DNA of 64,000 nucleotides from Pelovirga terrestris. Lineage in GTDB: Bacteria; Desulfobacterota; Desulfuromonadia; Desulfuromonadales; Geopsychrobacteraceae. Below the pieces are notes generated by a model. The model was given only the letters and a program-made list of their open reading frames with translations. It was not told where the DNA came from and did not search any database. Within the stretch, counting starts at the first letter, position 1. Every line of letters begins with the position of its first letter. Below are positions 1,081 to 36,878 of this stretch, piece after piece. The stretch is taken from the NCBI RefSeq assembly GCF_014773365.1, contig NZ_JACWUN010000002.1, positions 186,001 through 250,000 on the forward strand. The letters are read 5' to 3'. A program made the translations under genes and the position numbers.

Positions 1081-1752
1081 ATGGCTGCAACCACTGCTAC
1101 TAGCGCCCCTTTGCTGCAGATTCAGGATTGGGGCGTACTTGTTTATGAGCAGGCCTGCGTCCGACAACAGGACATGGTGCAGGGGCTGTTGTCCGGTTGT
1201 GGTACCAACACCCTGGTGCTGACTGAACATCCAGCCACCGTCACCCTCGGTCGGCGTGGCGGCGAATCTGACTTGCGCTGTGCTGAAGAGACTTTTGCTG
1301 ATCGTGGTGTTATGCTCCAGCGGATCAATCGTGGAGGTCTGGCCACTGCTCACGAGCCCGGCCAGCTGGTGGTCTATCCGGTGGTGGAGCTGCCGGTCAG
1401 GGATCTGCGTCACTTTACCTCCGGCGTTCTTCAGGTTGTTGTCGACCTGCTCGCCCAGTATGCTGTGGTTGGGGAGTTGCGACCGGGCAATCCGGGGGTC
1501 TGGGTTAAGGGACGCAAAATCTGCAGCTTTGGTATTGCCCTGAAGCGTTGGGTGAGCTGTCACGGTATCGCCCTGAATCTCAATAATGATCTCTCAACCT
1601 TTGACCTCATTGTGCCCTGTGGGGTGCCTGACGAACAGGTGACCTCCCTGGTCCGGGAAACCGGCAAGCCGGTTGATATGCAGCAAATCAAAGAGCAGGT
1701 GGTGACGCTGTTCTGTCGGCAATTCGGTTATCAGCCGGTTTATGGGGAATAG
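1081..1752 (+). CDS. lipB: octanoyl-[acyl-carrier-protein]:protein N-octanoyltransferase LipB
   Basis: The enzyme transfers octanoyl groups from acyl carrier protein to lipoyl domains of 2-oxoacid dehydrogenases and GcvH, the first step of lipoic acid synthesis in the cytoplasm. The 223-residue product carries the LipB signature RGGLATAHEPGQ at 84-95, the conserved lysine K146 in GRKICSFG and the catalytic cysteine C180 in IVPCG, matching the Lys/Cys dyad of characterised LipB. The start at ATG 1081 removes an unconserved N-terminal extension; GTG at 1072 is a possible alternative. The stop codon TAG at 1750-1752 lies inside a run of G-tracts that also provides the ribosome site of the next gene. 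Confidence 0.93.
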   Translation: MAATTATSAPLLQIQDWGVLVYEQACVRQQDMVQGLLSGCGTNTLVLTEHPATVTLGRRGGESDLRCAEETFADRGVMLQRINRGGLATAHEPGQLVVYPVVELPVRDLRHFTSGVLQVVVDLLAQYAVVGELRPGNPGVWVKGRKICSFGIALKRWVSCHGIALNLNNDLSTFDLIVPCGVPDEQVTSLVRETGKPVDMQQIKEQVVTLFCRQFGYQPVYGE

Positions 1753-1773
1753 GGAGCGGGGAGTGGGGAGTGG
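1744..1773 (+). repeat. G-run tract over lipB stop codon (degenerate heptamer array)
   Basis: Four runs of three or four G separated by 3-4 bases (AATA, AGC, AGT) cover the lipB stop codon and the Shine-Dalgarno region of the next gene. The spacing satisfies the usual G-quadruplex pattern. It resembles the longer GGGTAGT arrays at other gene ends in this window, but units are irregular here. Confidence 0.6.
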
Positions 1774-5057: not shown

Positions 5058-6518
5058 ATGATGATCATGGTTGATGAAAAAACAGAACAACGCTTGATGC
5101 ATGACATTATGGAACTGCTGGTCACCCACTATGGCGCCGAGCTGACCGAAGATGTTCTAGATAGCGAAATTGCGCGCCTTGAGATGGCTCTTAGCGACGC
5201 CCGGGAATCCCATCGCGGACAGGTGCGCAAATCGGGCGAACCTTACATTTTTCACCCGTTACGAGTTTCTCATCTGGCGGCCCGGCATTGGATGGACTTC
5301 TCGTCGATTATCGCGGCGCTGCTCCATGACGTGGTGGAGGATACGCCGGTCACCCTGGAGCAGGTGCGGACCAAATATGGCGACGAGGTAGCTCATCTGG
5401 TCGATGGTTTGACCAAGGTCACCTCCGAATTAATGGGGCGTGACGATTTAAAAAAAGAAACCTACAAAAAAACCCTGCTGGTAGCCATCAGCGACATTCG
5501 GGTGTTGTGCCTGAAATTCTGGGATCGTATCGATAATCTGCAAACGATTGACGCATTACCTCTGCAAAAGCAAAAGTTGATTGCTGAGGAAACCCGAAGT
5601 GTTTATGTCCCTCTGGCGCGCCATCTGGGCATGGGTTATGTCGCCAATGAGCTGGAATCCCTGTCACATTCGCTGCTTTACCCCAAGCGCGCCAAACGCT
5701 ATCAGCAGGTGATTGCTCAGCTGCAGGAAGATGCTGCAGGCTATTTACGCCAGATTCGTGGCAAGATTCATGTCGCCTGCGAAAAACAGAAATTATCGGT
5801 GGTGGTAAAGGACCGCTGGCGCCCCTTTACCGTCCCTGCAGCACAGGAGATGGGGCGAGGCTTTGGTGCCCTGTTTACCCTGGAAGTACACGTCGACCGG
5901 ATGATGGATGCCTATCTGTTCCTCGGCCTTTTGCACAGTCTGTTTCCTCCGATTCCCGGCAAGCTGCGGGACCATTTGAATCAGACCTCACAGCATGGTT
6001 ATCTGGCCATCAAAACCACGGTCCAGGCTGAAGAGCAGCGCATGCGCGTTGAAATTACTACGCGCAAACTGGCGCGTTTTAATCAGGCCGGGGTGCTGGC
6101 GCCCGGCTTCCGTTTCCGTCACGATAACTTCCGGGCCTTGATGAAATCCTTGATGGATGGTGAATCAGCCTTTGACACCGAATCTCTGAAACTGGCGTCG
6201 GCAACGATCCAGGTTTATACCCCGCAAGGGGAGGTGCGTAAGTTGCCGGAAGGCAGCAGCGTGCTGGATTTTGCTTTCGATATTCACGATTCAGTGGGCC
6301 TTCATGCCCGTCGTGGCCACATTAACGGACGCATCCGCCAGCTGAAAACCCGACTGCTGGATGGCGATCAGGTGATGGTTGAAACGTCGCAGGAACCTGA
6401 AGTGTTGCCCAAGTGGCTGGAGTGGGCGATAACCCCGCGAGCGCGCAACAGTATCCGCCGTTATCTGCGCAACAAGGTGCGGGCAGCGCAAACCGAAGCA
6501 ACCAATGAAAAGGAGTAA
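5058..6518 (+). CDS. HD-domain RelA/SpoT homologue with eroded synthetase region
   Basis: The 486-residue product carries an N-terminal HD hydrolase domain with YIFHPLRVSHLAA and the metal motif ALLHDVVEDTPV (H90/D91), as in (p)ppGpp hydrolases, and a C-terminal TGS-like domain from about residue 385 (IQVYTPQGEVRKLPEGSSVLDFAFDIH). The segment between them has the position of a RelA/SpoT synthetase but only scattered similarity (PIPGKLRDHLNQTSQHGYLAIKTTV); the usual synthetase motifs are not evident. I infer a hydrolase-like or regulatory protein rather than an alarmone synthetase. The length is well short of full SpoT (about 700). ATG 5067 is a possible later start. A deacetylase gene follows after 3 bases. 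Confidence 0.8.
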   Translation: MMIMVDEKTEQRLMHDIMELLVTHYGAELTEDVLDSEIARLEMALSDARESHRGQVRKSGEPYIFHPLRVSHLAARHWMDFSSIIAALLHDVVEDTPVTLEQVRTKYGDEVAHLVDGLTKVTSELMGRDDLKKETYKKTLLVAISDIRVLCLKFWDRIDNLQTIDALPLQKQKLIAEETRSVYVPLARHLGMGYVANELESLSHSLLYPKRAKRYQQVIAQLQEDAAGYLRQIRGKIHVACEKQKLSVVVKDRWRPFTVPAAQEMGRGFGALFTLEVHVDRMMDAYLFLGLLHSLFPPIPGKLRDHLNQTSQHGYLAIKTTVQAEEQRMRVEITTRKLARFNQAGVLAPGFRFRHDNFRALMKSLMDGESAFDTESLKLASATIQVYTPQGEVRKLPEGSSVLDFAFDIHDSVGLHARRGHINGRIRQLKTRLLDGDQVMVETSQEPEVLPKWLEWAITPRARNSIRRYLRNKVRAAQTEATNEKE

Positions 6519-9450: not shown

Positions 9451-9948
9451 ATGTCAGATTTTGTTGAAGAGGCCGGCGTTGAAAAAAATGTGTGTTACAC
9501 CCTGGAAGTAGCGCTGGAAAAATCCATTGTGATGGAAGAGCGAGCCTTTCGTAATCTGCTGCATGCCGTCAGAATTGTCAAGGATCGTCAGGCAAAAGCG
9601 ATTCTGCGGGACGCCGCCAAGGAGGAACTCGGTCATAAAAACTTGATCGAGAATGCCCTGCTTGAAGGGCATGATAAGAACGCTTCAATCATGACCGAAC
9701 CATTATCAAGCATGAACCTTGATTATGTATATCAGCAGAAGGAGATTGCCCCTGACGCTGATGCCCGTGAATCACTGGCCTATGCCATTCACCTGGAAAA
9801 GCAGGCGGTCAAGTTTTATAAGGCTCTGATCGCCGGCTGCGAAGGCGCGCCAATGATGGACCTGTTCAAGCGCCTGATGGCTGATGAAACCCGCCACCTG
9901 CGGACGCTGGAAGACCTTTACGAGAAGATCTTTTTGACGGAGAATTAG
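9451..9948 (+). CDS. ferritin-like diiron protein (rubrerythrin-type helix bundle)
   Basis: A 165-residue all-helical protein. Two halves each supply metal-binding pattern: ALEKSIVMEERAFRNLL with KEELGHKNLIE, and AIHLEKQAVKFYKAL with MADETRHLRTLEDLYE. The spaced E/ExxH motifs fit a four-helix ferritin-like diiron site; there is no C-terminal rubredoxin domain, so it is not a classical rubrerythrin. A role in peroxide or iron handling in an anaerobe is inferred from the family. Start has GGGAGGG. The stop codon TAG is part of the repeat palindrome at 9943-9982. Confidence 0.8.
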   Translation: MSDFVEEAGVEKNVCYTLEVALEKSIVMEERAFRNLLHAVRIVKDRQAKAILRDAAKEELGHKNLIENALLEGHDKNASIMTEPLSSMNLDYVYQQKEIAPDADARESLAYAIHLEKQAVKFYKALIAGCEGAPMMDLFKRLMADETRHLRTLEDLYEKIFLTEN

Positions 9949-9982
9949 GTAGTGGGTAGTGGGTAGCTCCCACTACCTAATT
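9943..9982 (+). repeat. heptamer palindrome at ferritin-like gene end
   Basis: AATTAGGTAGTGGG at 9943-9956 and its exact reverse complement at 9969-9982 form a perfect 14-bp inverted repeat around TAGTGGGTAGCT. The left arm contains the stop codon of the preceding gene. The arms are made of the GGGTAGT heptamer found as long arrays elsewhere in the window. Confidence 0.85.
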
Positions 9983-9996
9983 TCCGATATAAGAAT

Positions 9997-13640: not shown

Positions 13641-15482
13641 ATGAGCAAGAAAGTCAAAAAAGAAGAAGGTCAGATTTCCATTCACACCGAGAATATTTTC
13701 CCCATCATCAAAAAGTGGCTCTACAGCGACAAAGATATCTTCCTGCGTGAGCTGGTTTCCAACGCGGTGGATGCTATCCACAAGCTGCAGAATGTCAACC
13801 TGCTGGAAGGGTTGCAGCTTTCCGACGAATACCAGGTCACTATCCATATCGACAAGGATGCCGGTACCTTAAGTGTTTCCGATAACGGCATCGGCATGAC
13901 CGCCGATGAGGTGCGCAAGTATATCAACCAGGTGGCGTTTTCCTCAGCGGAGGACTTTGTCGAAAAGTTCAAGGACCTCGAAGACAAAAACCAGATTATC
14001 GGTCATTTCGGGCTGGGTTTTTATTCCAGCTTCATGGTCGCTGAAACCGTGGAAATCCGCACCCTGTCCTACCAGAAAGAAGCGCAAGGGGTGCACTGGA
14101 TCTGTGAAGGGACCACCAGCTACAGCATCGAGGAAATCAGCAAGGATCAGCGCGGCACCGAGGTGATTCTGCATCTGAATGATGATGAGAAGGAGTTCCT
14201 CGATCCGGTCAAGGTGCGCGAACTGATCAAGAAATACTGCAACTTCCTGCCGGTCTCTATTTGTCTCGAAGGGGAGGAGGTCAATGACAAAAACCCCCTC
14301 TGGACCAAGGCTTCTACCGAGATCAGTGAAGACGAATACAAGGAGTTTTACCGCAAGCTCTACCCCATGTCCGATGATCCTCTGTTCTGGATCCATCTGA
14401 ATATCGATTACCCCTTTAATCTCAAAGGGATTCTCTATTTCCCGCGTCTGACCAATGAATTTGATGTCAGCCGCAGCCACATTAACCTGTTCTGCAATCA
14501 GGTGTTTGTTTCCGATAGCACACCGGAACTGATTCCGGAGTTTCTGACCCCGTTGCAGGGCGCTCTGGACGCCCCTGATCTGCCCCTGAATGTTTCGCGC
14601 AGTTACCTGCAGAATGAACCGCAGGTGCGCAAAATCCGTGAAGTAATCAGTGGTCGGGTCGCCGCGAAAATTGTTGACCTGGCGAAAAAAGATCCCGATG
14701 CCTTCGTGCCAATCTGGGAGGATATTCACTCCTTTGTCAAATACGGCATGATGCGTGAGGATAAATTTTACGATAAGGTCAAGGATCAGGTGATCTACCG
14801 GTCAACTGGTGAAAAGCGTTATACGACCTTGCCCGATTATCTTGAGCGTGGCAAAGAACAGCATGAAAACAAGGTGTATTACGCCAACGATGAGGGTGCC
14901 CAGGCGACCTACCTGCGCCTGTTCAAGTCGCAAGATTTAGAAGCACTGATCCTCGATGCTATGATCGACAATCATTTTATCCAGTTTCTTGAGTCGAAGA
15001 ACAAGGATCTCAAGTTCGAGCGGGTCGATTCTGATATCACCGAAAATCTGCTGGAGCACGATGCCTCCAAAAAGATTGTAACCGGTGAGGATAACCAGAC
15101 CAAGGAAGAGAAGATCGAAAAGATCTTCAAGGATCATCTCGACATCAAGGGCTTGCACATTCGCGTTGAGACCCTCAAAGATGAATCGGTTCCGGGAATG
15201 ATTCTGCTCAATGAGCAGCAGCGGCGCTTCAAGGAAATGACCCGGATGATGGGGCAGGGTAAAGAGATGCCCGACCTGTTTGCTGACCACACCCTGATGG
15301 TCAACACCGCCAGCCCGGCTATTGCCAAGGTGCTGGCTCTGGTTGACGACAACAACAGCGAAACCGCCAACATGCTGATCGACCAGATTTACGACCTCGC
15401 CATGCTCTCCCACCAGGCCATCAGCAAAGAACGCATGGCCGGTTTTATGGAGCGTAGTGGGAAGCTCCTTGGAATGATCTGA
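13641..15482 (+). CDS. htpG: molecular chaperone HtpG (Hsp90)
   Basis: Bacterial Hsp90 of 613 residues, the normal length. The GHKL ATPase domain shows FLRELVSNAVDAIHKLQ (Asn/Asp for Mg-ATP), VSDNGIGMTADEV and IGHFGLGFYSSFMVA; the middle domain contains DVSRSHINLFCNQVFV and LPLNVSRSYLQNE; the C-terminal dimerisation region includes MILLNEQQRRFKEMTRMM. It acts as a cytoplasmic ATP-dependent chaperone for client proteins. The start has AAGGAGG. No CIRCE element or clear heat-shock promoter is visible upstream; the gap holds dispersed repeats. A G-rich repeat tract begins two bases after the stop codon. Confidence 0.97.
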   Translation: MSKKVKKEEGQISIHTENIFPIIKKWLYSDKDIFLRELVSNAVDAIHKLQNVNLLEGLQLSDEYQVTIHIDKDAGTLSVSDNGIGMTADEVRKYINQVAFSSAEDFVEKFKDLEDKNQIIGHFGLGFYSSFMVAETVEIRTLSYQKEAQGVHWICEGTTSYSIEEISKDQRGTEVILHLNDDEKEFLDPVKVRELIKKYCNFLPVSICLEGEEVNDKNPLWTKASTEISEDEYKEFYRKLYPMSDDPLFWIHLNIDYPFNLKGILYFPRLTNEFDVSRSHINLFCNQVFVSDSTPELIPEFLTPLQGALDAPDLPLNVSRSYLQNEPQVRKIREVISGRVAAKIVDLAKKDPDAFVPIWEDIHSFVKYGMMREDKFYDKVKDQVIYRSTGEKRYTTLPDYLERGKEQHENKVYYANDEGAQATYLRLFKSQDLEALILDAMIDNHFIQFLESKNKDLKFERVDSDITENLLEHDASKKIVTGEDNQTKEEKIEKIFKDHLDIKGLHIRVETLKDESVPGMILLNEQQRRFKEMTRMMGQGKEMPDLFADHTLMVNTASPAIAKVLALVDDNNSETANMLIDQIYDLAMLSHQAISKERMAGFMERSGKLLGMI

Positions 15483-15483
15483 T

Positions 15484-15532
15484 TGGTGGGGAGTGGGTAA
15501 TGGGGAATAGGTAGTAGTGACAGGGGGGGGAC
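15484..15532 (+). repeat. degenerate GGGTAGT-type tract after htpG
   Basis: G-runs of 3-7 separated by AGT, TAAT, AATA and similar. It begins two bases after the htpG stop and its last G-run serves as the ribosome site of the four-helix-bundle gene. Confidence 0.7.
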
Positions 15533-15887: not shown

Positions 15888-15927
15888 CCCCACTACCCAC
15901 TACCCACTACCCACTACCCACTACCCA
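15888..15927 (-). repeat. CCCACTA heptamer array (G-rich on minus strand) at trmL 3' end
   Basis: About five exact heptamers on the plus strand as CACTACC. On the minus strand it reads GGGTAGT and supplies the last glycine codon and TAG stop of trmL. Confidence 0.9.
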
Positions 15928-22416: not shown

Positions 22417-22503
22417 GCCGAAGTGGTGGAATTGGTAGACACGCTAGGTTCAGGGTCTAGTGGGCGTAGGCCCGTGGGAGTTCGAGTCTCCCCTTCGGCA
22501 CCA
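22417..22503 (+). tRNA. tRNA-Leu (anticodon CAG)
   Basis: The acceptor stem is GCCGAAG/CTTCGGC, discriminator A, encoded CCA. The D-arm contains GGTGGAATTGGTAGACAC, the anticodon stem CTAGG/TCTAG encloses loop TTCAGGG (anticodon CAG), the long class II variable arm TGGGCGTAGGCCCG follows, and the T-loop is GTTCGAGT. The tRNA-Leu modification enzyme TrmL is encoded nearby at 15921. Confidence 0.97.
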
Positions 22504-22533: not shown

Positions 22534-22542
22534 GTTCGTTGA

Positions 22543-22652
22543 CCCACTACCCACTACCTACTACCCACTACCCACTACCCACTACCCACTACCCACTACC
22601 CACTACCCACTACCCACTACCCACTACCCACTACCCACTACCCACTACCCAC
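22543..22652 (-). repeat. long CCCACTA heptamer array (about 15 copies)
   Basis: About fifteen tandem heptamers, one with a single change (CCTACTA). On the minus strand they read GGGTAGT and begin one base after the TGA stop of malic enzyme. G3 tracts spaced by four bases satisfy the G-quadruplex pattern many times over. The translated frame across the array is low-complexity and not a gene. Confidence 0.95.
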
Positions 22653-22653
22653 A

Positions 22654-24000
22654 TCAATCCCCATCCCAATGTTTAATCACCCCTGATTCCAGCGCCGCCC
22701 GTTCAACCGCAGCCGTTACCTCTTTGTGAACGTCAGGGTGGAGCAGGGATGGCACCAGTTCGTGCTCTTCAGCATGACGGGCGATGCACTGGGCCGCTGC
22801 GATTTTCATCTTGTTATTGATTCTGGTTGCACGGACGTTGAGGGCGCCCCGGAACAGACCGGGGAAGGCGAGGGCGTTATTGACGCTTTTACCATCGGCA
22901 GCGAAGGATGCACCGACCTGCATGGCAAGTTCCGGTTCGATTTCCGGATTCGGGTTGGACAGGGCCAGAATAACCGACCCTTTACGCACCATCTCCGGGG
23001 TGATCAAACCCGGTCGCCCGGTCGTTGCAATAACAATGTTGGCACGTTGCATGACCTCTTCAAGGGTTCCTTCTTTGCCGCCGGCAGCAACCAGGCGCTC
23101 GCGGGCATTGCTGTCGATGTCGGTGCCGATGACCTTTTTTACGCCGTAGGAGAGCAGTAGTTTGCTGATTCCCATCCCCGCCGCCCCCAGTCCTATCATC
23201 CCGACCGTTGCCTGCTTGAGCATCATGCCTGAGAAGCGGGTTGCGTTAAGCAAGGCAGCCAGGACAACAACTGCGGTGCCATGTTGGTCGTCGTGCATGA
23301 CCGGGATGTCCAGCTGGGCATCAAGCACCTCCTCAATCAGAAAACACTCAGGGGCTTTTATGTCTTCAAGCTTGATTGCGCCAAAAGTCGAAGCAATGTT
23401 CAGAACCGTATCAATAATAACCTGCGGATCGTGGCTCTGGATCAGGATAGGCACGCCACTGACCCCGACCAGATGATCAAACAATACCGCCTTGCCTTCC
23501 ATCACCGGCATCCCCGCCACGGCACCTATGTCACCCAGCCCAAGGATCGCCGTACCATTGGTGACAATGGCAACCTGATTCGGGATAGATGTGTATTTGT
23601 TGGCCAACTCCGGTGAACGCTGGATGTCCTTGCAAATGGCAGCGACACCGGGGGTGTAGATCTGGCGAACGTCGGTAATGGTTTCAATCCGGACGCGGCT
23701 GCGGGTAGCGATTTTGCCGCCCTCGTGAACCTGATGAACCAGATCGATCAGATCTTCAACGATAATTCCTTCAAGCTTTGAAATAGCCTCAACAAGCTCA
23801 TCAAACTGTTCTTCCGAATCAACATAAACCACAATTTCACGGGTATTGTGAGTGCGGCCAACGCGCACCAGGTGAATGTCGCCAACACTGGCATTATTCT
23901 GGGCAATGGCATTGGTTACGCTGGATAAATGGCCAGGCTTGTCCTTAAGCATCAGACGCAGACATTTAGCAATTTTTCCAGCACCTTTTTCGATATCCAT
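22654..24000 (-). CDS. NAD(P)-dependent malic enzyme with N-terminal ACT domain
   Basis: Oxidative decarboxylation of malate to pyruvate. The 448-residue product starts with an ACT-like regulatory domain (about 1-80: CLRLMLKDKPGHLSSVTNAI), then the malic domain (RQIYTPGVAAICKDI, VTNGTAILGLGDIGAVAGMPVMEGKAVLF, PVMHDDQHGTAVVVLAAL) and the Rossmann domain (VGMIGLGAAGMGISKLLL, VIGTDIDSNARERL, ALSNPNPEIEPELA). ACT domains suggest amino-acid control. CGGAG lies upstream of the ATG. Hairpin element copy C ends 47 bases before the start, in the same direction. Confidence 0.93.
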   Translation of the reverse strand: MDIEKGAGKIAKCLRLMLKDKPGHLSSVTNAIAQNNASVGDIHLVRVGRTHNTREIVVYVDSEEQFDELVEAISKLEGIIVEDLIDLVHQVHEGGKIATRSRVRIETITDVRQIYTPGVAAICKDIQRSPELANKYTSIPNQVAIVTNGTAILGLGDIGAVAGMPVMEGKAVLFDHLVGVSGVPILIQSHDPQVIIDTVLNIASTFGAIKLEDIKAPECFLIEEVLDAQLDIPVMHDDQHGTAVVVLAALLNATRFSGMMLKQATVGMIGLGAAGMGISKLLLSYGVKKVIGTDIDSNARERLVAAGGKEGTLEEVMQRANIVIATTGRPGLITPEMVRKGSVILALSNPNPEIEPELAMQVGASFAADGKSVNNALAFPGLFRGALNVRATRINNKMKIAAAQCIARHAEEHELVPSLLHPDVHKEVTAAVERAALESGVIKHWDGD

Positions 24001-33561: not shown

Positions 33562-34734
33562 ATGTATACAAAGTTTTTTGATTTAAGCGCCAAACCTTTT
33601 GACTTGCTGCCCAACCCGCAGTTTCTTTATTTAAGCAAAGGCCACCGCAAGGCCTTGAGCTATCTGCAATATGGTGTGCAGGAGCGGGCCGGCTTTTCCC
33701 TCCTCACGGGTGAAGTTGGTTCAGGGAAAACCACCATTTTAAGGGATATCATTAATAAAATCAGTGGAGAAATGTCGTTGGCCATGGTGTTTAACACCCA
33801 AGTTGATGGACATCAGTTGATCGCCCTGATTAATGATGATTTCGGGCTGAAGACTGAAGGTAAAGACAAGGTTCAACTGATCAACGAACTCAACGACTTT
33901 CTCCTTGGTGAAAATGCCGCCGGTCGCCAGGCCATCATCATTATCGACGAAGCTCAGAATTTAAGCGAAGAAGCCCTCGAAGAAATTCGGCTGCTCTCCA
34001 ATCTCGAAGCCGACAGCTTCAAACTGGTGCAGATTATTCTCGTCGGGCAACCGGAGCTTAAGCAGATCATTGCCCGTCCCTCACTGCGCCAACTCCGTCA
34101 ACGCATCAGCATCAGTTGCCATTTAAACCCTCTCAATCGCGAAGAAATCGAGGAGTATATCCTGCATCGCCTCGGCACGGTCGGTAAGCGTGACTGTGTC
34201 ACTTTTGAGGAGGGGGTTTTTGATGGCATTTTTAAATTCAGTGGCGGTATTCCAAGACTGATCAATCTGATCTGTGATTTTCTGATGCTTTCCGCCTTTG
34301 TCGAAGAAACCCGCAATGTCGATAGGGATATGGTTCAAGATGCAATCAATGAGCTTTCCTTTGAAGATACACAGCTGGACGAAACTGAAGAGCGGGGAGG
34401 GGCTGCAGCTGGAAAGAGTGTCTCGCCGGCGCGGCGGATCTTCACCGGCTCAAGCCTTGACGACCGGGTCGCGCGGATTGAAGAAAATTACGCGAAAATC
34501 AGTGCTGCCCGCGCGGAAAACGAGGCGATTATTGAACGTTTGTCGAGCCAGGGAAGTATTATAGAGTATCTGATCAATCAGCAGCAAAAGCAGTATATCA
34601 AGATTGAGGATCAACTGAAAAGGATCTCCTCCCAGGTCGAGCGCTTACGCCAGGCCGTCCTGACCGACAACCGCCGGGTCGCCGATCCGGATATCATCAA
34701 GCTCGAATCGGTTGTGTGCAAGGATAATGGGTAG
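33562..34734 (+). CDS. XrtA-associated ExeA-like AAA ATPase
   Basis: A 390-residue cytoplasmic ATPase starting MYTKFFDLSAKPFDLLPNPQ, the typical ExeA/GspA-type N-terminus. Walker A is GEVGSGKTTI and Walker B IIIIDEAQNLSEEAL; the sensor region contains LRQRISISCHLNPL. After about residue 270 follows an acidic and Ala-rich region and a predicted coiled coil (RVARIEENYAKISAARAENE). XrtA clusters regularly carry this ATPase; its partner is unclear. The last codon GGG and stop TAG belong to a heptamer array. Confidence 0.9.
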   Translation: MYTKFFDLSAKPFDLLPNPQFLYLSKGHRKALSYLQYGVQERAGFSLLTGEVGSGKTTILRDIINKISGEMSLAMVFNTQVDGHQLIALINDDFGLKTEGKDKVQLINELNDFLLGENAAGRQAIIIIDEAQNLSEEALEEIRLLSNLEADSFKLVQIILVGQPELKQIIARPSLRQLRQRISISCHLNPLNREEIEEYILHRLGTVGKRDCVTFEEGVFDGIFKFSGGIPRLINLICDFLMLSAFVEETRNVDRDMVQDAINELSFEDTQLDETEERGGAAAGKSVSPARRIFTGSSLDDRVARIEENYAKISAARAENEAIIERLSSQGSIIEYLINQQQKQYIKIEDQLKRISSQVERLRQAVLTDNRRVADPDIIKLESVVCKDNG

Positions 34735-34905
34735 TTGGGTAGTGGGTAGTGGGTAGTGGGTAGTGGGTAGTGGGTAGTTAACCCTTCATGGCGTACGCTT
34801 TACAGTTCACGGCCTTAAACAAATGACACCGCGAAGCGGTAGACATCGCTTTAGCGATGGACCAATCACGCCGCCCTGCGGCAGACAGCGCGAAGCGGTA
34901 GACAA
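34729..34905 (+). repeat. composite repeat module 1 (GGGTAGT array plus hairpin units)
   Basis: 34729-34778 is an array of GGGTAGT (about six copies) containing the ATPase stop. It is followed by degenerate heptads (TACGCTTTACAGTTCACGG) and then short hairpins ACCGCGAAGCGGT, ATCGCTTTAGCGAT, GCCGCCCTGCGGC and GCGCGAAGCGGT, mostly linked by AGAC and CAAATGAC. The last CAAATGAC supplies the start codon of the epimerase gene. Confidence 0.85.
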
Positions 34906-35847
34906 ATGACAAATGACAAATTAAAAATTCTCGTAACCGGTGGTGCCGGTTTTATCGGTTCACATCTGGTGGATCTCCTGTTATCGCAGAATCACCAGGT
35001 CGTGGTTCTTGATAACTTCAGCACCGGGAAATTAGATAATCTCCCCAGTGCTGATCGAGGGCTGAGCATTGTCAATGGCGATATCCGTTACAGCGATACC
35101 GTCGAACAGGCAGCAACCGGCTGTGATGCCATTGTTCATCTGGCAGCAGTGGCCTCGGTTCAAGCTTCTGTCGAGGATCCCTGCGGTACCCATCAGGTCA
35201 ACCTGGTCGGCACCCTCAATCTGCTCGAAGTGGCTAAAAAGCAGGGAATCAAGCGTTTTGTCTATGCTTCTTCCGCGGCTGTGTATGGCGATACGAACGA
35301 GTTGCCGGTCAGCGAAGCGACTCAGCTTAATCCCCTGACCCCCTACGCTGCCGACAAGCTTGCCGGCGAATACTACATCGACTTTTATCGCCGCCAATAC
35401 CATCTCAAGCCCGTCATTTTCCGTTTTTTTAATATCTTTGGCCCCCGGCAGGACCCATCATCTCCTTATTCCGGGGTCATCAGCATCTTTCTTCAGCGGG
35501 CACAGGCCAACCAGCCGATCACTGTCTTTGGTGATGGTGAGCAGACCCGTGACTTTGTTTATGTCGCTGAGCTGGTCCGTCTGCTGGAACAGGCTGTCAC
35601 TACGACCGAACCTGCAGCTATGCCGATGAATGTCGGCAACGGCAAGCAAACCAGCCTCAATCAACTGCTGGCCGCTATCCAGGATTTTTCAAGTCATCCA
35701 TTGGATATCCGCTACAGCAACCCCCGCAGCGGAGATATCCGTTATTCCTGCGCCGACAACCAGCGAGTCAGAGAGCAGATGGGGTTTCACAACCAATATC
35801 CAATCGCCGACGGGTTGAAACGTACCTGGGAGTGGATGAGAGAATAG
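34906..35847 (+). CDS. NAD-dependent nucleotide-sugar epimerase (extended SDR)
   Basis: A 313-residue extended SDR of the UDP-hexose 4-epimerase type. The cofactor motif is TGGAGFIGSHL near the N-terminus; AAVASVQASVEDP, YASSAAVYG and the catalytic PYAADKLAGEYY (YxxxK) follow, then FRFFNIFGPRQDP and GDGEQTRDFVYV. It would supply an epimerised UDP-sugar (glucose or GlcNAc) for the polysaccharide. The start ATG lies in a repeat (CAAATGACAAATGAC); no ribosome site is visible, and the gene is separated from the cluster by that repeat module. Confidence 0.88.
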   Translation: MTNDKLKILVTGGAGFIGSHLVDLLLSQNHQVVVLDNFSTGKLDNLPSADRGLSIVNGDIRYSDTVEQAATGCDAIVHLAAVASVQASVEDPCGTHQVNLVGTLNLLEVAKKQGIKRFVYASSAAVYGDTNELPVSEATQLNPLTPYAADKLAGEYYIDFYRRQYHLKPVIFRFFNIFGPRQDPSSPYSGVISIFLQRAQANQPITVFGDGEQTRDFVYVAELVRLLEQAVTTTEPAAMPMNVGNGKQTSLNQLLAAIQDFSSHPLDIRYSNPRSGDIRYSCADNQRVREQMGFHNQYPIADGLKRTWEWMRE

Positions 35848-36014
35848 TGAGCAGTAAGCAGTAAGCAGTAAGCAGTAAGCAGTAAGCAGTTACCGCTCAC
35901 GGCTCACCGTTCACGGCTTACGTTTTTCAACAAATGACGCCGCTTTAGCGGCAGACAAATGACAAGGGACACCGCGAAGCGGTAGACAAAGGACGCCGCT
36001 CTAGCGGCAGACCA
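35848..36014 (+). repeat. composite repeat module 2 (AGCAGTA array plus hairpin units)
   Basis: The epimerase TAG abuts six AGCAGTA heptamers (35848-35890), then four GCTCACG-like heptads, then three units of GCCGCTTTAGCGGC, ACCGCGAAGCGGT and GCCGCTCTAGCGGC, each linked by AGACAAA or similar and ATGAC. The last ATGAC is the deacetylase start. The AGCAGTA unit carries TAA in every frame after three copies. Confidence 0.85.
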
Positions 36015-36878
36015 ATGACCATTACTAACTATCTTACCATTGACGTTGAAGATTACTTCCATGTCTCAGCATTCGAGAACATCTCGCCACCGGAAACCTG
36101 GGGGACGCGTGAGTGTCGGGTTGAGGGCAATACCGATCTGATTCTTGCTATTCTCGATGAAAACAACACCAAAGCGACCTTTTTTATCCTCGGCTGGGTG
36201 GCTGAACGCTACCCTCAGCTGACCAAAAGCATAGCTGCCCGTGGTCACGAAATAGCCTGTCACGGTTATCTCCATCAACGCGTCGCCCTGATGGAGCGCG
36301 ACACCTATCGCCAGGATATCCGCCGCGCCAAAGCCCTGCTCGAAGATCAGAGTGGTCAGGCGGTCAACGGTTATCGCGCACCCAGTTATTCTATTACCCG
36401 CCGGACCTGCTGGGCCTTTGATGAGCTGATTGATGCCGGTTTCACCTACGATTCCAGCATTTTCCCCATGCATCACGACTTTTACGGCATTCCCGATTGG
36501 CCCCGTTTTGCCGGCTATGCCGTCAAGCAAGGCGAGCAATGGCTGGCGGTCGACGCTATAGCTGCCGGTCAGCAAGGGATCCGTGAAATACCTATCACCA
36601 CCCTGGATCTCGCCGGCAAAAACCTTCCCATTGCCGGTGGCGGTTATTTCCGTCTGCTTCCGTACCATATCACCCGCTGGGGTTTGAAGCAGATCAACAA
36701 CAAAGAGCAGCAACCCTTTGTCTTCTATATCCACCCCTGGGAATTCGATCCGCGCCAACCCCGCATGGCAGGTGCAAAAATGAAAAGCCGCTTCCGTCAT
36801 TACCTTAACCTTGATCGGACAGAAGCACGCTTCCGGGCATTGCTGCGGGATTTTAAGTTTGGACCGATTGGAGACTGA
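36015..36878 (+). CDS. XrtA-system polysaccharide deacetylase (DUF3473 type)
   Basis: A 287-residue cytoplasmic-looking NodB-type deacetylase without signal peptide. It begins YLTIDVEDYFHVSAFE, the family start; metal ligands are in TIDVEDY and CHGYLHQRV, then NGYRAPSYSI, and FYIHPWEFDPRQP with the C-terminal part typical of this PEP-CTERM-linked type. In complete XrtA clusters the deacetylase precedes a FemAB-like protein, an AMP-ligase and exosortase A; here those are absent and a Wadjet operon follows at 36995. The start codon comes from the repeat module. Confidence 0.9.
   Translation: MTITNYLTIDVEDYFHVSAFENISPPETWGTRECRVEGNTDLILAILDENNTKATFFILGWVAERYPQLTKSIAARGHEIACHGYLHQRVALMERDTYRQDIRRAKALLEDQSGQAVNGYRAPSYSITRRTCWAFDELIDAGFTYDSSIFPMHHDFYGIPDWPRFAGYAVKQGEQWLAVDAIAAGQQGIREIPITTLDLAGKNLPIAGGGYFRLLPYHITRWGLKQINNKEQQPFVFYIHPWEFDPRQPRMAGAKMKSRFRHYLNLDRTEARFRALLRDFKFGPIGD

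Follow-up and report, generated by a model that had tools for sequence, protein, structure and literature searches.

Seven-base tandem arrays behind stop codons in Pelovirga terrestris, its sister species and other bacteria

Why do several genes in one stretch of a bacterial genome end in arrays of a seven-base unit that are G-rich on the coding strand? Bacterial heptamer repeats have been noted before, without an established cause. The window analyzed here comprises 64,000 nt, positions 186001-250000 of contig C22, in a genome of 3.1 Mb.

Arrays at gene ends in the window

The seven gene-end arrays described in the initial annotation were all present at about the positions claimed when the sequence was re-examined and scanned for repeats (Table 1). 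Each of them begins a few bases before to a few bases after the stop codon, as had been stated, and coding-strand G-richness was confirmed, with G over C in all seven. The presence of TAG in the array or at its edge also stood as a phenomenon, although the count was five rather than four (lipB, ferritin-like, trmL, ATPase and epimerase). The stop of htpG and malic enzyme is TGA, immediately before the array. Near-perfect period 7 was found at five of the seven ends (ferritin-like, trmL, malic enzyme, ATPase and epimerase); the lipB and htpG runs were degenerate and received no Tandem Repeats Finder call in the window scan. The window contained 24 occurrences of GGGTAGTGGG, where 0.10 were expected.

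Pfam supported the identities of the genes as lipoyl ligase, ferritin/rubrerythrin-like protein, HSP90, SpoU methylase, malic enzyme, AAA ATPase and epimerase. In lipB, SpoU methylase and epimerase, where the stop lies inside the array, the domain reaches the profile end or falls at most one residue short of it, and the SpoU_methylase domain of the trmL-like gene is complete to that end. Therefore, these enzymes are not truncated by the array. At the gathering score, Rfam gave no match at the arrays, and its only match in the window was a tRNA at 22417-22500.

Table 1. Heptamer arrays and neighboring features at gene ends, in window coordinates
Feature	Position	Strand	Remarks
lipB-end GGGGAGT-type run	1744..1773	+	degenerate; contains TAG stop 1750-1752
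Ferritin-like gene-end period-7 array	9948-9966	+	near-perfect; TAG stop 9946-9948
Ferritin-like end hairpin, short GGGTAGT arm and inverted copy	9949..9983	+	directly 3′ of TAG stop 9946-9948
htpG-end G-run heptamers	15484..15520	+	degenerate; 3′ of TGA stop 15480-15482
trmL-like SpoU methylase-end GGGTAGT array	15889..15927	-	5.6 copies; provides TAG stop 15921-15923
Malic-enzyme GGGTAGT array	22542..22652	-	15.9 copies, near-perfect period 7; begins 1 nt past TGA stop 22654-22656
Malic enzyme gene ahead of the array	22654..24000	-	ORF and Pfam malic, Malic_M, ACT
AAA ATPase-end GGGTAGT array	34728..34778	+	about 7 copies; TAG stop 34732-34734 within
Epimerase-end AGTAAGC (AGCAGTA) array	35846..35890	+	at TAG stop 35845-35847; near-perfect period 7
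Inverted pyrimidine-rich heptamer arm, TACCGCT CACGGCT CACCGTT CACGGCT..., then TTTTT	35891..35922	+	pairs with the epimerase array

Placement and strand in the genome and in other bacteria

Contigs C22 and C11 were taken whole (638 kb) as a unit-blind sample, with an array threshold of 19 nt and with genes called in this analysis by a codon-scored caller trained on these two contigs. Period 7 accounted for 25 tandem arrays, periods 14, 21 and 28 being treated as multiples of 7, and the next basic period for four at most (period 9). A third-order Markov sequence of equal length (638 kb) contained no array at period 7. None of the 25 arrays lay inside a called gene; 13 started no more than 10 nt from a sense stop, and the mirror position, an antisense stop, had none. 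When place and strand were randomized within the same gaps (2000 trials), 1.5 arrays on average, and never more than 5, fell near sense stops, against the 13 observed. With stretches found by unit pattern added (threshold 21 nt, one duplicate removed), 19 of 39 own arrays were at a sense stop and one was mirrored. Near starts, the 25 arrays gave none antisense and one sense (a GACAAAT array). A chance origin was rejected on the excess of GGGTAGTGGG, the dominance of period 7 and the stop-placement test.

A genome-wide scan for GGGTAGT arrays of at least 17 nt returned 14. Seven had their start within 10 nt of a sense stop, and another two followed such a stop at distances of 15 and 19 nt. One array was mirrored, antisense and 3 nt from a stop (C3:17695), and four lay in a toxin-antitoxin island more than 100 nt from a gene end. 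Placement is thus not random with respect to stops and strand, as the initial annotation had expected, but the window shows a stricter pattern than the genome as a whole.

The GC skew after the stop was near zero at array-free ends. The bias therefore comes with the array, and local composition was rejected as the cause of the G excess. At two gaps, C11:73845-73984 and C11:84070-84130, convergent genes have one array each on opposite strands. As each array stands behind its own gene within one gap, replication direction is excluded as the source of the strand bias. Array-bearing ends were convergent in 7/13 cases, versus 107/525 of the others. We also considered whether array-bearing genes are more highly expressed; their codon score (median 0.21, n = 10) did not differ significantly from that of other genes (0.18, n = 473; P = 0.11), and this candidate was set aside.

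The units in the own genome include GGGTAGT, GGGGAGT, GGGGACT, AGTAAGC, GGTGAGC and GTAGGTA, among others. Most have period 7 and an excess of G over C on the coding strand in common. The pattern RGTRRGN, frequent in the genus, covers many of them, although in three genomes of the order its reversed control was frequent too. No stop triplet occurs in GGGGAGT or GGGGACT. GGGTAGT and GGGGAGT carry G-tracts, whereas AGTAAGC, GGTGAGC and AGTGAGC, found at equivalent places, do not.

The set from other bacteria was collected by exact match to a 31-nt array and comprised at least 113 stretches from at least 80 other assemblies. Among the matches listed were Planctomycetota, Bacteroidota, Acidobacteriota, Cyanobacteria, Campylobacterota, Proteobacteria, Spirochaetes, candidate phyla and others, with isolates such as Zoogloea ramigera NBRC 15342 and Marinospirillum alkaliphilum DSM 21637. 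A 24-nt array occurred in three of the 60 nearest genomes, all of one genus, the own genome included. Among the matches listed, 41 of 109 intergenic GGGTAGT arrays began within 10 nt of a sense stop against five mirrored at an antisense stop, or 34 against five of 75 when counted by assembly. In the listed stretches, other G-skewed heptamers, which had not been selected for, were at a sense stop in 14/46 cases with none mirrored, and low-skew heptamers were at stops in 0/13. Period 7 provided 200 arrays in these stretches, a number that includes the arrays used as bait, and the next basic period 13. The bias in position and strand is real in the own genome and across many phyla, as had been proposed from the window.

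Part of the overlap of stop and array is trivial, because an open frame entering a GGGTAGT array must end there; the stop lay wholly inside 25 of the 41 stop-anchored GGGTAGT arrays among the matches listed. As a full account this effect was rejected: the stop straddled the array or lay outside it in the other 16 of 41, and in 8/14 cases with other units, in the listed stretches. A second excess was seen near starts. GGGTAGT arrays stood 11-60 nt from antisense starts in 15/33 cases and from sense starts in 3/31 (listed stretches), and none of the 109 arrays among the matches listed had a sense start within 10 nt.

A simpler first gene caller had drawn 19 ORFs on the C-rich strand through arrays, several of which stood immediately in front of a gene. 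Once codon-scored, only 6 of 115 GGGTAGT arrays in the listed stretches were inside a called gene, with five antisense ORFs entering the array, and antisense reading was rejected as a rule. Within some genes, the C-rich strand of an array is part of the reading frame and encodes (TTHYPLP)n: L139:5611-5646, in a Peribacteraceae assembly, where the gene, named by eye, resembles the carbamoyl-phosphate synthase small chain, and L092:4447-4532 and 5765-5839, in two long ORFs of a spirochaete.

Sister species and two-armed sites

We compared the own genome (G000) with three sister species of the genus (G001, G002 and G003). At the malic-enzyme end, G000 has 16 copies and G001 about two between the same flanks, which favors local expansion or contraction; G003 has eleven copies of GGTGAGC and G002 one related heptamer. 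The lipB end is written in three units in three species: the GGGGAGT type in G000, GAGTGAT passing into GTAAGCA in G003, and AGTGAGC in G002. Gradual change of the unit inside a single array was seen in this lipB array of G003 and from GGGTAAT to AGTAAGC in G002 (L248). Length also varied between species (trmL end, 39 nt in G000 and 25 nt in G003; C22:9992, 103 and 33 nt; C44, 64 and 55 nt). The htpG orthologue of G003 also has heptamer-like runs, in degenerate form. No array was found at the orthologous stop of the ATPase in G001 or G002, nor at C11:299416 in G001 or G003, where G000 has one, and the epimerase gene had no orthologous match in the sister species.

Fourteen site-by-species comparisons were fixed beforehand from G000: malic enzyme in three species, trmL and htpG each in G003, ATPase in two, the 84067/84130 pair in three, C11:299416 in two and the ferritin-like end in two. 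Seven had an array, one had two copies and six had none, the single related heptamer of G002 at malic enzyme being scored as none and species without an orthologous match being uncounted. The lipB, C22:9992, C44, C3:92245, C3:17695, C44:163679 and C11:73845 sites are biased towards presence, because they were found through array matches. Where both species have an array, orthologous ends are often written in a different seven-base unit. This argues against a role that depends generally on the G-tract or on the stop triplet.

AGAATAY heptamers, partly with inverted arms, occur at gene ends of G001 and G002 (L167, L187, L253 and L264) where G000 is G-rich, so the species differ in their main heptamer. 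Contrary to the strand rule, one gene-end array is antisense, and it is so in three species (G000:C3:17689-17732, G003:C11:70597-70650 and G001:C53:3277-3307); each site thus inherits its own orientation. Arrays of the AGTAAGC type were located at or beside contig ends of G003 (C16, C17, C49 and C51; L240, L241, L244 and L245). Draft assemblies may therefore break there and undercount arrays.

The C11 gap 84067/84130, where both convergent genes have an array, one per strand, consists, in G000 and G003, of a G-rich arm and a C-rich arm joined by TTTT. The same arrangement is built of AGAATAY heptamers in G002, and in G001 up to the contig edge. The predicted folds in G000, G003 and G002 had energies of -51.6, -43.4 and -34.2 kcal/mol and z-scores of -11.3, -7.2 and -7.6, against shuffles that, here as for the other folds, keep single-base composition only. 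Hairpins were also predicted at the epimerase (-25.8 kcal/mol, z -2.7) and ferritin-like (-19.1 kcal/mol, z -4.4) ends; the latter is built of different heptamers in G000 and G001 and is missing in G003. Paired arms despite a different unit favor either selection on the hairpin or a copying process that keeps the arms alike.

An inverted arm downstream of the array was found in 5/23 own arrays and, in the listed stretches, in 7/37 GGGTAGT arrays at stops, 4/63 elsewhere and 9/41 with other units; upstream, the same classes gave 0/23, 0/41, 0/62 and 1/44. Duplex energies with z below -3 showed the same side (downstream versus upstream: own, 5/25 and 0/25; and in the listed stretches GGGTAGT at stops, 8/37 and 1/41, GGGTAGT elsewhere, 7/65 and 3/63, and other G-skewed units, 9/42 and 2/45). 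A duplex match at malic enzyme was discounted, as its segment extends into the neighboring tRNA gene. In the C11:73845-73984 gap the two arms match neither in length, with 111 and 23 nt in G000 and 58 and 86 nt in G003, nor in unit. A hairpin with a U-tract occurs at the epimerase, at C11:301846 and at the ferritin-like end of G001, whereas the 84067/84130 hairpin has none. By a simple scan, an intrinsic-terminator-like site followed 1/13 array-bearing ends and 47/252 others; a terminator behind the array was rejected as a rule, with only one such end. The RNA structure suggested in the initial annotation is thus supported at some ends, as a predicted hairpin of two inverted arms, but these are a minority of sites.

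Possible origins and known heptamer repeats

The reading that we favor, tentatively and at somewhat less than even confidence, is that these are heptamer microsatellites that expand locally at the 3′ ends of genes and in some cases form the 5′ arm of a 3′-end hairpin. Slippage would locally lengthen and shorten small seeds beside the stop. At some ends the array would be the 5′ arm of a two-armed hairpin, the purine-rich arm first and the pyrimidine-rich arm second, and this hairpin may serve as a 3′-end structure, often between convergent genes, that is maintained for pairing rather than for sequence. The strand rule would then follow, since the arm that meets the stop would be the 5′ arm. 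Long one-armed arrays such as that of malic enzyme might be products of slippage that have little function in themselves. As the inverted arm occurs only at a minority of arrays and the arms at C11:73845 are unequal, we hold the two layers separate: the slippage-driven microsatellite is well supported, and we infer a 3′-end role of the hairpin at part of the sites.

This account is favored by the dominance of period 7, the stop and strand bias, two versus 16 copies at one end, the three lipB units and the hairpins retained through unit change. The opposite arrays of convergent genes, the downstream bias of inverted arms and the convergent excess among array-bearing ends point the same way. Against it, most arrays have no inverted arm, a terminator-like site follows few ends, and six of the 14 comparisons showed no array. 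The account does not explain the excess of GGGTAGT arrays near antisense starts, and it is the G-skewed arrays that stand at stops (low-skew ones 0/13, listed stretches), which pure pairing does not require.

The nearest rival, a rather unlikely one, is transcription-coupled expansion without function, in which R-loops at stops provoke slippage and the arrays are near neutral. RNA left bare behind the last ribosome, if G-rich and C-poor, would re-anneal to the template and expose the coding strand to slippage. G over C is indeed common to the stop-anchored units and low-skew units were never among them (0/13, listed stretches); the bias accompanies the array, array-free ends having near-zero skew; and opposite arrays in one gap each follow their own gene. 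However, the codon score of array-bearing genes was not significantly higher (P = 0.11), and R-loops predict neither hairpins kept through unit change nor the excess near antisense starts. The opposite arrays remove replication direction, and the unit swaps remove quadruplexes and stop fail-safes, as general causes; the testable questions that remain are whether expansion depends on transcription past the stop and whether paired arms are selected. We consider it doubtful that the arrays are one 3′-end element of many phyla, fixed in phase (7 nt), stop-codon place, G-over-C strand and, where two-armed, pairing but free in sequence, with whole-unit replacement per species at orthologous ends.

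An RNA or DNA G-quadruplex acting at the 3′ end, suggested in the initial annotation, appears quite improbable. GGGTAGT and GGGGAGT have the G-tracts, and a fold model that allows quadruplexes lowered the energy at three sites (malic enzyme, -17.7 to -28.6; trmL, -6.3 to -13.4; the G000 array pair at C11:73845-73984, -40.6 to -104.7). Rehm et al. (PMC4692102) showed quadruplexes of related heptamers in vitro. The idea survives as predicted folds of GGGTAGT and fails as a general cause: orthologous and paralogous sites carry AGTAAGC, AGTGAGC, GAGTGAT or AGAATAY, which have no G-tracts, and malic enzyme of G001 is in a two-copy state.

A mobile or horizontally spread array inserted at gene ends, also among the early suggestions, is very improbable. 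It would account for the same heptamer at many sites in many phyla, and differing units at one orthologous site could mean re-insertion. At the malic-enzyme end, however, targeted insertion is contradicted by the same flanks around about two copies in G001, and the gradual passage from one unit to another inside a single array (lipB of G003; L248 of G002) also speaks against it. The least probable of all is a stop fail-safe, in which TAG in every frame would end readthrough: GGGTAGT offers this, and the stop is wholly inside 25 of 41 arrays among the matches listed, but GGGGAGT, without a stop triplet in any frame, and other stop-free units stand at stops too. With stop-free GGGGAGT and tract-free AGTAAGC at the same places, neither the fail-safe nor the quadruplex can be general.

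Heptamer microsatellites that expand locally and are partly paired, as we prefer to see these arrays, are of a kind already described but little studied; what is added here is the swapping of units and their distribution across phyla. The short tandemly repeated repetitive (STRR) heptamers of cyanobacteria form arrays between genes, as here. Intrinsic terminators and REP-like palindromic 3′-end elements also place a hairpin between the stop and the next gene, often a convergent one. Unlike them, the arms here are heptamer arrays, the U-tract is present at some sites only, and the sequence is replaced between sister species.

The closest likeness is to the G-rich heptamers GGGAATC of Xanthomonas and GGGGA(C/T)T of Nostoc (Rehm et al. 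2015, PMC4692102). These stand on the coding strand at stop codons, some overlapping the stop, and form inverted pairs between convergent genes; their place is conserved and their length changed between two Xanthomonas species. A second rule puts heptamers upstream of genes on the non-coding strand, and the role of the repeats is left open. The present arrays share the intergenic heptamer, the coding strand within 50 bp of the stop, stop overlaps, convergent inverted pairs, upstream arrays on the non-coding strand, and the same gene context in sister species with changed length. The over-represented intergenic unit corresponds to our 25 arrays in 638 kb, none in a called gene; the stop rule to 13/25 own arrays and 41/109 in other phyla (matches listed), all within 10 nt; and the convergent pairs to C11:73845-73984 and 84070-84130. 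GGGNATC was not matched here, but GGGGACT is one of the Nostoc units. Differences from the repeats as described there are that not every unit here has a G-tract (AGTAAGC, GGTGAGC and AGTGAGC at equivalent places), that one genome holds several units, that units are replaced at orthologous ends, and that many phyla are involved. The preference of those repeats for four units was not seen here among arrays of 19 nt or longer; the lengths of own GGGTAGT arrays in that range, 19 to 124 nt, showed no peak at 28 nt.

The TAACTGA direct repeats of Beggiatoaceae (MacGregor 2015, PMC4679880) are likewise intergenic heptamers of distant phyla, and one of their strands carries stop triplets. Most of them precede a start codon by a few nucleotides and are oriented towards it, whereas the present arrays have other units and follow stop codons (0/109 within 10 nt of a sense start, matches listed). 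Among the matches listed, a literature search returned no report of GGGTAGT arrays of this kind.

Two other repeat features were seen beside the arrays. The toxin-antitoxin island (G000:C11:301000-308000; L230:1000-8000) has Phd/YefM, MazE/PemK, PIN, HigBA-like and YafQ-like genes separated by long shared repeats that contain GGGTAGT, GGTGAGC and GGGGACT arrays, one of them as a hairpin with GTTTTT. We suspect it to be a candidate integron-like cassette array. A second dispersed repeat, ACAAATGAC with GCCGC..GCGGC palindromes, lies behind heptamer arrays at window positions 34890-35000 and 35930-36019 and is found again behind gene ends of G003 and G002.
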